From positions 930,001-994,000 of the forward strand of contig NC_013743.1 of NCBI RefSeq assembly GCF_000025325.1: DNA of 64,000 nucleotides. Direction: 5' to 3'. This DNA comes from Haloterrigena turkmenica DSM 5511. GTDB taxonomy: Archaea; Halobacteriota; Halobacteria; Halobacteriales; Natrialbaceae. Below are positions 11,848-35,243 of this stretch, one piece after another. How positions within the stretch are numbered: position 1 is the stretch's first letter; the number at the start of each line of letters is the position of its first letter. The translations under genes and the position numbers were made by a program. The notes beneath the pieces are model-generated. The model worked only from the letters and a program-made list of their open reading frames with translations, was not told the DNA's origin and did no database searches.

Positions 11848-11895
11848 CGAAATTTTACCGAGGGCGCGGCCTGCCGCGCCCTCGGTAAAATTTCG
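11848..11895. terminator. Perfect 23-bp stem hairpin after acyl-CoA dehydrogenase
   Basis: Bases 11848-11870 are exactly complementary to 11873-11895 with only CT between them (core ttaccgagggcgcggc / gccgcgccctcggtaa). It lies 18 bases beyond the acyl-CoA dehydrogenase stop, so it may form the transcript 3' end. The gggcgcgg...ccgcgccc core recurs at 34275-34295 within the hairpin series. Confidence 0.6.
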
Positions 11896-11973
11896 ATTAA
11901 AAGCACTCCTCCTTCCTCTTCGCTCGTTTCACTCGCTCCGAGTCAGTCGTCGGCCCGAGCGCGAAGCGCTCGG
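11896..11973. repeat. Dispersed non-coding element, copy A
   Basis: Read on the minus strand this contains cgggccgacgactgac (11943-11958) and ggaaggaggagtgctttt (within 11897-11916) in the same order as copy B at 34089-34152, with unrelated sequence between. It is flanked by GAA-loop hairpins in both places (here ccgagcgc-gaa-gcgctcgg, 11955-11973). No protein is encoded. Confidence 0.6.
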
Positions 11974-33731: not shown

Positions 33732-33956
33732 ATGGCGTCACAGTCACCACAGGGGATCGACGTGTCGATACCGGCGGGTCTGGATTCTGCGCAAGCGAAA
33801 CTGGTCTATCTCTACGTCGCCGCGAGCGGCACCGCGACGCCCGAGCGGCTCTGCGACGATCTCTCCGTCAAAAAGGGAACAGTTCTCTCGATCACCAGTA
33901 CTCTCCGGGATCGGGGACACCTCGAGCGGACCGACTCCGGATTTCGACTGGCCTGA
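33732..33956 (+). CDS. Small winged-HTH protein (MarR/TrmB-like)
   Basis: A 74-residue single winged helix-turn-helix. LDSAQAKLVYLYVAASG and TATPERLCDDLSVKKGTVLS form the HTH and DRGHLERTDSGFRLA the wing. There is no effector domain. A DNA-binding regulator is likely, target unknown. It lies between the XapX gene and the hairpin-rich region. Confidence 0.75.
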   Translation: MASQSPQGIDVSIPAGLDSAQAKLVYLYVAASGTATPERLCDDLSVKKGTVLSITSTLRDRGHLERTDSGFRLA

Positions 33957-34427
33957 GTCTGCAACCATCTGCTACCCGACGCAGCTAAACGGCCGGGAGC
34001 GGGTTCGCCGTGATTTTCTGCGAACCCGCGACCCGGGGGAGGGCAGGCCCTTCACCGACACTCACCGCGAGTGAGCGAAGCGAACGAGCGGGCCGACGAC
34101 TGACCCGGAAGCCGCGCTGTGCGCGGCTGAAGGGAAGGAGGAGTGCTTTTAATCGGATCTGAGCGGGATCGAAGATCCCGCGAGGTCGTCGGCGCGAAGC
34201 GCCGACTGCAAGCGATTCCGAAGGAATCGCCCAGTCCAAAAGAGCGCTTCGCGCTCTTTTGAAGGTTTTGCCGAGGGCGCGGCTTCGCCGCGCCCGTGGT
34301 TAGAAAGACGCCGAAGGCGTCTTTCGTCATCAAGCGAGACCTCCGGTCTCGCGGACCTCGCGAATCGAAGATTCGCTCAGTCACGAGAGAGCTTCGCTCT
34401 CTCGAACGACAGAGCAAAACTTCGTCT
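33957..34427. repeat. Non-coding region with about eleven consecutive short hairpins
   Basis: Between two convergent genes lie successive perfect inverted repeats, most with a three-base GAA or TTC loop: 33999-34029 (longer loop), 34110-34128, 34163-34181, 34188-34206, 34212-34230, 34238-34260, 34275-34295, 34303-34325, 34334-34352, 34360-34376 and 34384-34404. Stem sequences differ from one another and have 7-10 base pairs. Copy B of the dispersed element (34089-34152) lies among them. No protein is encoded. Function may be in termination from both sides or as structured RNA. Confidence 0.8.
34089..34152. repeat. Dispersed non-coding element, copy B
   Basis: cgggccgacgactgac (34089-34104) and ggaaggaggagtgcttttaa (34132-34151) match the minus strand of 11896-11958 exactly, in the same order, with different sequence between (here a hairpin agccgcgc-tgt-gcgcggct). 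Confidence 0.6.
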
Positions 34428-35243
34428 CTAGAGTTCGATCCGCTCGACTAACTGGTCGCGGTTCTCGTTCGTGTTGACGGCGACGATGCGGATCTCCTGT
34501 TCGAGGCCCGACCCCTCGAGTTTCGCCTTGAGCAGGTTGTCGACCTGGTAGACGCCGGCGGCGTTGGTCATGGCGATCTCGACCATGACCGGGCTGTCCT
34601 CGCCCTCCTGGAGCGAGACGCTGCTGATCGCCTGACTCGAGAGGGTGTTGATCCCGCGACCACCGTGTTCGTAGGGGATCCGGGAGCGGCCCCGTTCCAT
34701 GTCCAGGGCGTCGGCGACGCGGATGACGCCCGCTTCGGTCGTCAGCGGCGTCTCCGACCGGTGGTGACAGAGGATCGCGTGGAGGACTTCGCCCTTCATG
34801 CGGACGGTTTCGGCGACGTCGTAGAACTCGGGGAGGATGCGATCGAGGATGTCGGCGGCCAGCGGAATCGAGTAGTAGGCGTGCTGGTCGCGGTGAACGA
34901 CGTGGCCGACGTCGTGGAGCGTCGCCGCAAGCGCGATGATGACCGCCTCGTCGGCCTCCTCGAGGTCCTGCTGGCGAGCGCCGTTGAAGTCGACCCCGCC
35001 GACCTTGAGCAGGTCGTAGAGACACAGCGCGCGGTTGCGGACGATCTCGATGTGTTTCGCGCCGTGGTCGTTATACCGCATGCGGTCGACGGCGTTGATA
35101 TTCTGGGCCTCGAGGTAGGTCTGGATCTCCTCGTCGCTGGTAATGAACTCGAGGACCTGGTTCAGTTTCGCGTCCGGAAAGTCGTGATCGGCATCGGGGG
35201 AGTAGACGCGGCGAGCGGTGTCGTCACCGGTAGAATCGCTCAT
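34428..35243 (-). CDS. HD-domain phosphohydrolase
   Basis: A 271-residue metal-dependent phosphohydrolase. The N-terminal part has HIEIVRNRALCLYDLLKVGG, and the HD motif is in LAATLHDVGHVVHRDQHA, followed by ILCHHRSETPLTTEAGVIRVADALDMERGR with further His/Asp ligands. The C-terminal 70 residues form a small beta domain. HD proteins of this layout may act on nucleotides or signalling molecules; the substrate is unknown. Confidence 0.85.
   Translation of the reverse strand: MSDSTGDDTARRVYSPDADHDFPDAKLNQVLEFITSDEEIQTYLEAQNINAVDRMRYNDHGAKHIEIVRNRALCLYDLLKVGGVDFNGARQQDLEEADEAVIIALAATLHDVGHVVHRDQHAYYSIPLAADILDRILPEFYDVAETVRMKGEVLHAILCHHRSETPLTTEAGVIRVADALDMERGRSRIPYEHGGRGINTLSSQAISSVSLQEGEDSPVMVEIAMTNAAGVYQVDNLLKAKLEGSGLEQEIRIVAVNTNENRDQLVERIEL

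Follow-up and report, generated by a model that had tools for sequence, protein, structure and literature searches.

Introduction

Hairpin-associated small inversions are known from chloroplast genomes, where, as at the locus described here, the loops of non-coding stem-loops flip-flop. The chloroplast cases differ in that they are single organelle hairpins without cassettes or constant linkers. Stable hairpins formed by RNA mostly carry tetraloops. The loop lengths found in rRNA agree with this preference (PMC8794818), and GNA trinucleotide loops have been described as leading to extraordinarily stable DNA minihairpins (Yoshizawa 1997, in the form in which it is cited in PMC6479982). Maintenance of hairpins by template switching has been proposed (PMC8794818), a process that homogenises the arms and inverts the spacers; the inversions reported include GAA to TTC (PMC8604942). 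Rewriting of hairpins was previously deduced mostly from hairpins that stand alone, in rRNA and in yeast genes.

Short dispersed stem-loops are also found between genes as REP/BIME sequences (GTAG and CGTC families, PMC3733652), which form mosaics with constant spacers and are characterized by family-specific stems, feet tagged with GTAG or CGTC and frequent G-T pairs. In Haloferax volcanii, transcription termination at T stretches has been demonstrated; hairpins are found upstream of these terminators, and one hairpin terminated 59% of the transcripts (PMC7237163). Here we describe a dense hairpin array and compare it to these systems. In the open-access papers on haloarchaeal palindromic intergenic repeats, no description of this element was found.

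Eleven stem-loops between converging genes

The array is located within a stretch of 64,000 nucleotides that was analysed as a whole (the window, C1:930001-994000) and belongs to a genome of 5.44 Mb with a main contig of 3.89 Mb, the relatives of which are Natrialbaceae. It occupies the gap between two genes that converge on it (Table 1). The protein encoded on the left gives a weak match to the N-terminal domain of HVO_A0261 (PF25213, E 8.9e-6), which lies under the Pfam cut-off.

Table 1. Features of the array, its flanking genes and a second copy of the element in the window
Feature	Position	Strand	Remarks
Second element copy	11848-11973	-	core now a perfect palindrome, 11848-11895
Left flanking gene	33732-33956	+	74 aa, HTH-like, directed toward the array; aligned to the same flank in congeners
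Outer stem-loop	33999-34029	none	10-bp arms, 11-nt loop; 12-bp arms and 7-nt loop in a congener
Conserved box GGGGGAGGGCAGGC opening the left module	34035-34048	+	from comparison of copies
Tandem G-A hairpin CCGC-GA-GT-GA-GC[GAA]GC-GA-AC-GA-GCGG	34065-34091	+	strand-specific
Left-module second helix CGACGACTGA...GAAGGAGGAG	34094-34143	+	proposed tandem G-A pairs
T tract ending the left module (gtgcTTTT)	34147-34150	+	putative terminator for rightward transcripts
Cassette alpha	34163-34261	none	four hairpins; linkers GAGGTC / TGCAA / CCAGTC
Alpha hairpin 1, GCGGGATC	34163-34181		loop GAA
Alpha hairpin 2, GTCGGCGC	34188-34206		loop GAA
Alpha hairpin 3, GCGATTCC	34212-34230		loop GAA
Alpha hairpin 4, CAAAAGAGCGC	34237-34261		loop TTC
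Core left half TTTTGCCGA	34266-34274	+	
Core hairpin GGGCGCGGC(TTC)GCCGCGCCC	34275-34295	none	sole hairpin of single-hairpin copies
Cassette beta	34296-34410	none	GTGGTT (34303-34325) TCATCAA (34334-34352) GGACCTC (34360-34376) TCAGTCA (34384-34404) AACGAC
Core right half AGAGCAAAA	34411-34419	-	TTTTGCTCT on the minus strand; candidate terminator for the leftward gene
Right flanking gene	34428-35243	-	271-aa HD-domain protein (PF01966, E 3e-10), directed toward the array

A sequence-only reading of the window had claimed here a series of about eleven hairpins with perfect stems of 7-10 bp and GAA or TTC loops, apart from one TCC loop. Every hairpin that it listed was found at the given start with a perfect stem. 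These nine are triloop hairpins (starts at 34163, 34188, 34212, 34237/8, 34275, 34303, 34334, 34360 and 34384) with stems of 8, 8, 8, 11, 9, 10, 8, 7 and 9 bp in this order, so that only the longest exceeds the claimed range. Their loops are GAA in five cases, TTC in three and TCC in one. Together with the stem-loop at 34110-34128 (loop TGT) and the outer stem-loop, the total is eleven. The hairpin starts are spaced regularly at roughly 25-35 nt, and the 5' feet of the nine hairpins (ctga, ggtc, gcaa, agtc, ccga, ggtt, tcaa, cctc and gtca) share no common tag.

Triloop stems of 7 bp or more number ten within 33999-34427, eight of them with GAA or TTC loops. In 5,000 dinucleotide-preserving shuffles the number of such GAA/TTC hairpins never exceeded one and was zero in 4,615. 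When folded as single-stranded DNA, the array gives z = -9.7 as compared to shuffles. All genome-wide hairpin figures rest on a sample of 854 kb of the 5.44-Mb genome, in which 43 stems of 7 bp or more with a GAA or TTC triloop were counted against 0-7 per shuffled block. C-GAA-G closure is found in 36 of these 43, and the array is the densest cluster in the scanned sequence. The shuffling had been named along with the initial claim as a possible refutation and bears the claim out; shuffles of the array and of the 854-kb sample rule out an origin by chance. A CRISPR array of constant repeats and unique spacers is ruled out, as is a simple tandem repeat, since the stems differ and no repeat family covers the hairpins, in agreement with the initial claim. 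A match to the array in the phage collection was not found.

A mosaic repeat family with a conserved core

A segment of 288 bp from the array recurs as a 94% copy at C1:3470079-3470356, and about ten partial copies are scattered over the rest of the genome. Among the copies the linkers are constant (GAGGTC, TGCAA, CCAGTC, AAGATTTTGCCGA, GTGGTT, TCATCAA, GGACCTC, TCAGTCA and AACGAC). The stems are drawn from a limited vocabulary (CGAGAGAGC, CGAAAGACGC, GTGCGGTCGC, GCGGGATC and others), one stem recurring between different linkers. Nine different stems are present within the array, and 20 distinct stems were counted in a single slot. As read from the compared copies, stems change almost only as matched pairs. 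The suggestion that structure is conserved while sequence is not thus holds for the stems, but not for the linkers between the hairpins.

The core of the family follows the formula TTTTGCCGA-(stem)-GCAG.GCAAAAG, the right half of which can also be given as GCAGMGCAAAAG. The simplest members have one hairpin and read GTGCTTTTCATCAACG-TTTTGCCGA-(stem)-GCAGAGCAAAAG-GTTG. At two loci (L136 and L152) the entire single-hairpin element is tandemly duplicated with N between the copies, which might be an assembly artefact or a recent duplication. A scan of 84,980 species genomes for the exact core returned 54 stretches, of which about 50 are haloarchaeal and come mainly from genera of the Natrialbaceae, in addition to Halomarina, Halarchaeum and unnamed Halobacteriales; four bacterial matches lack the stem. 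With three positions left free, the core was detected in 40 of the 146 genomes of the order, while the reversed control gave 0. The outer variable pair of the core is Watson-Crick in 134 of the 144 cores listed (G-C 103, A-T 24, C-G 5, T-A 2). Because this pair covaries in four types, the whole core is a genuine extended hairpin, and its foot carries T tracts on both strands. The flanks outside the core also covary by eye (caac/gttg, caaa/tttg, cgaa/ttcg and cgac/gtcg).

At about 24 loci, roughly half of them, the right edge of the core is only 4-9 nt away from the stop codon of an opposing gene that reads toward it. None of the cores was located inside a called gene at the core loci, where ORFs were called with codon scoring, an imperfect procedure that missed the small left gene of this window. 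By simple ORF calling, only about half of the loci lie between convergent genes, 22 of 52 clearly so; the annotated plasmid copies (L198, L199, L200 and L202) are all four found between converging genes. By these comparisons, the array is the longest and most expanded form of a dispersed mosaic haloarchaeal element located between converging genes.

Gain and loss of hairpin cassettes

At the sites that were followed through the congeners, the core is kept in most species and the number of hairpins varies. Orthologs carry 9, 7, 5, 3 or 1 hairpins at the HD-gene site, 9, 5, 3 or 1 at the 3470k site, 5 and 1 at the 1433k site, and 3 and 1 at the 941k site. At the 63k site an eroded multi-hairpin form is present besides forms with 5 and 1 hairpins. 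The orthologs show that the blocks of extra hairpins with their constant linkers of 5-7 nt are gained and lost whole, as cassettes.

Cassette beta (GTGGTT...AACGAC, four hairpins) was found in 13 copies, the linkers of which are constant while the stems have changed, and its host elements are of two different kinds. In one genome it is tandemly duplicated. At four loci (L188, L198, L201 and L202) it sits within another hairpin repeat of haloarchaea, GCCTCGGGGTCAA...CCCGAGGC. The empty form of this other host repeat is GTGAACCGCCTCGGGGTCAAGCCCCGAGGCACTCGGCCTGC, which is widespread on haloarchaeal plasmids.

Further observations concern the surroundings of the cassettes. The dispersed repeat GTGAACCGCCTCGGGGTCAAGCCCCGAGGCACTCGGCCTGC...CCTGTAGA (L245-L248, position 2201-2241) looks similar to a transposon end; its loop is TCAA and carries beta at four loci. 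In L189 (G002:C3:1004) and L194 (G069), copies of beta are flanked by sequence resembling a tRNA T-arm (GATTTGAACC...GGAAGACGG); a tandem duplication interrupted by an N was seen there too, perhaps due to assembly collapse. The alpha linkers CTGA..GAGGTC (34159-34187) are the reverse complement of GACCTC..TCAG in beta (34353-34383), and alpha and beta therefore look like inverted relatives that could pair across the array.

Cassette hairpins and template switching

In 183 linker-anchored hairpins, 1,531 Watson-Crick pairs, 14 G-T pairs, 13 A-C pairs and 19 other mismatches were counted, whereby hairpins with more than three mismatches were excluded, so that perfection is somewhat overstated and the comparison of G-T and A-C is unaffected. 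Selection for RNA encoded on one strand should favour G-T, and the finding that G-T is no commoner than A-C argues against it. The scarcity of G-U would be equally expected under transcription of, and selection on, both strands. The cassette loops occur in either orientation (GNA:TNC = 47:55; as the repeat copies are related, loop and mismatch counts are not independent). With three bases, C-G closure and GNA on one strand they fit the rule for stable DNA minihairpins. Orthologous hairpins with the same stems often differ by exact inversion of the loop (GAA/TTC, GCA/TGC, AAA/TTT), and at the same locus the loop is flipped on an unchanged stem in GCGGGATC (gaa/ttc), GTCGGCGC (gaa/ttc), CAAAAGAGCGC (ttc/gaa) and GTGCGGTCGC (gca/tgc). 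In these patterns of change, the cassette hairpins behave as DNA and not as strand-specific RNA.

Inversion of the spacer between unchanged arms, as found in the array family, is a known outcome of template switching. Homogenisation of the arms can be followed in the second copy of the element. Its palindrome has 48 bp, consisting of 23-bp arms and a 2-nt centre, and the right arm is the exact reverse complement of the left arm. At the same site, the orthologs in the congeners G005 and G004 are not homogenised and keep the asymmetric foot, CCGA...GCAGCG (...GCAGCGCAAAA). Judged against these orthologs, the palindrome is a footprint of arm homogenisation. From the pattern of changes in the array and this one clear footprint we infer that template switching most likely keeps the stems perfect, accounts for their matched changes and flips the loops. 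The published template-switch hairpins (PMC8794818, PMC8604942) likewise have perfect arms, compensatory changes of several bases and inverted loops including GAA to TTC. However, each of them stands alone in an rRNA or a yeast gene, whereas here a whole multi-hairpin repeat family appears to evolve in this way.

A putative convergent 3'-end element

The explanation that we favour, though with reservations, is that the array is a convergent 3'-end or terminator element, the hairpins of which act and evolve as DNA and are kept perfect by template switching during replication. A bidirectional terminator between convergent genes had been among the first suggestions for this locus; its anatomy fits, because the genes converge and the core contains a conserved double T tract, and termination itself is putative. 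As in archaeal T-tract terminators, a T stretch is located between the genes soon after a stop codon, that of TTTTGCTCT lying about 8 nt past the stop codon of the HD gene. A bacterial-type intrinsic terminator does not fit, since the T run comes before the hairpin on both strands and not after it.

With the T-stretch terminators of Haloferax volcanii (PMC7237163) the array shares an intergenic T tract shortly past the stop codon and hairpins near the 3' ends. In contrast to them, the T tract here stands before the hairpin on either strand, two converging genes have the hairpin in common, and cassettes multiply the hairpins up to nine. Each of the converging transcripts would reach its own T tract first, with the hairpin behind it, and by analogy with the Haloferax volcanii T stretches would end there. 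Two T-tract terminators would thus face each other across the hairpins, which might serve as a barrier or insulator between both transcripts. The alpha and beta blocks would be inserted into, or lost from, the gap between the T tracts, and template switching of the DNA polymerase inside each hairpin would maintain and rewrite the stems and flip the loops.

Strand-specific parts and the possibility of a structured RNA

Alternatively, hairpins and linkers could fold as one RNA, i.e. a plus-strand structured ncRNA or 3' UTR in which GAGGTC and GACCTC close a multi-branch domain. We regard this as rather unlikely for the array, even though its predicted RNA fold is strong (z -8.8) with GAGGTC paired to GACCTC, and parts of the element are strand-specific. 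In the left module (34065-34150), the hairpins alternate between Watson-Crick and tandem G-A steps, and a T tract follows them. Tandem G-A hairpins of the type at 34065-34091 number 13 in 854 kb, as compared to 0-1 in shuffles and 0 in the reversed sequence. In the second helix a Y/R pair varies between T-A and C-G among the copies, the pairing having been assigned by eye, and an alignment-based fold gives partial support. The core loops, unlike those of the cassettes, prefer GNA on the plus strand (50:16 order-wide), and in imperfect core stems 103 of 136 mismatches are A-G/G-A and only one is T-C. Because of the strand-specific G-A hairpins and the preference for GNA loops, both the left module and the core may act as RNA, with a function in the rightward transcript, the inserted cassettes sitting between two T tracts. 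Reading the core internal loop CGA/GCAGA as a kink-turn was dropped, as the pairing is one base out of register.

For the array itself, an RNA of stacked stem-loops, as the sequence-only reading had also considered, is less well supported. Its cassette loops run both ways and are triloops of the GNA/TNC type known from DNA instead of RNA tetraloops, G-T is not commoner than A-C (14 vs 13), and entire cassettes are absent in congeners. No Rfam family matched the array at gathering level. The permissive matches (Termite-leu, P33, mir-4766 and CRISPR-DR20) are far under the gathering scores and reflect the tandem stems.

Mobility and protein binding

That the array belongs to a non-autonomous mobile family of the REP/BIME or MITE kind, which is moved by a transposase and for which gene 3' ends are merely tolerated landing sites, seems unlikely to us. 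Its dispersed copies and mosaic structure would agree with mobility, as would the presence of cassette beta in two unrelated host elements, its tandem duplicate in one genome and its imperfectly inverted ends (GTGGTTCG...CGAACGAC). The proposed mobile hairpin family stands insofar as the element is repeated, cassette-like and present in many copies and species. Like REP/BIME sequences, the array family forms dispersed intergenic mosaics with constant spacers. Unlike in REPs (PMC3733652), however, the stems are exchangeable and not constant, the feet vary and show neither GTAG nor CGTC in any of the nine array hairpins, G-T is rare and the loops invert. Target-site duplications were not recognised by eye in the compared sites, and no linked transposase was seen. 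Because the core is found at the same orthologous site across the genus and close to stop codons, it looks functional and not like a random landing.

It is very improbable that the array is bound by a DNA-binding or nucleoid protein recognising hairpins or palindromes, with the linkers as spacers, since despite constant linkers and regular spacing there is no candidate protein, only the structure could be recognised, and the widely varying stems make a sequence-specific double-strand site unlikely.

Implications and further elements

If right, the convergent terminator explanation points to an undescribed convergent 3'-end signal of haloarchaea. The many natural copies would then also document, in a prokaryote, how hairpins arise, become perfect, invert their loops and are exchanged. 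Paired stem changes, commonly taken as proof of a functional RNA, could thus have their origin in the DNA itself. A more speculative extension, which we put forward with considerable doubt, would take the hairpins themselves as the heritable units. They would be organised in constant-linker cassettes, their stems rewritten as whole palindromes and their loops flipped, and would spread among converging 3' ends by recombination or template switching without a transposase, thereby forming adjustable barriers between transcription units.

Another family of hairpins with tandem G-A pairs (GATGAGCGAACG...GTGAGCGAATC), in every case with GGCTGGGGAGG behind it, was observed at G000 C1:2748, 91795, 107181 and 829601 (L033, L037, L038 and L054) and looks like another undescribed haloarchaeal structured element. 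At 437-629 the window contains another dense set of perfect stems, mostly with longer loops (8, 4, 8, 3, 2, 5 and 6 nt).
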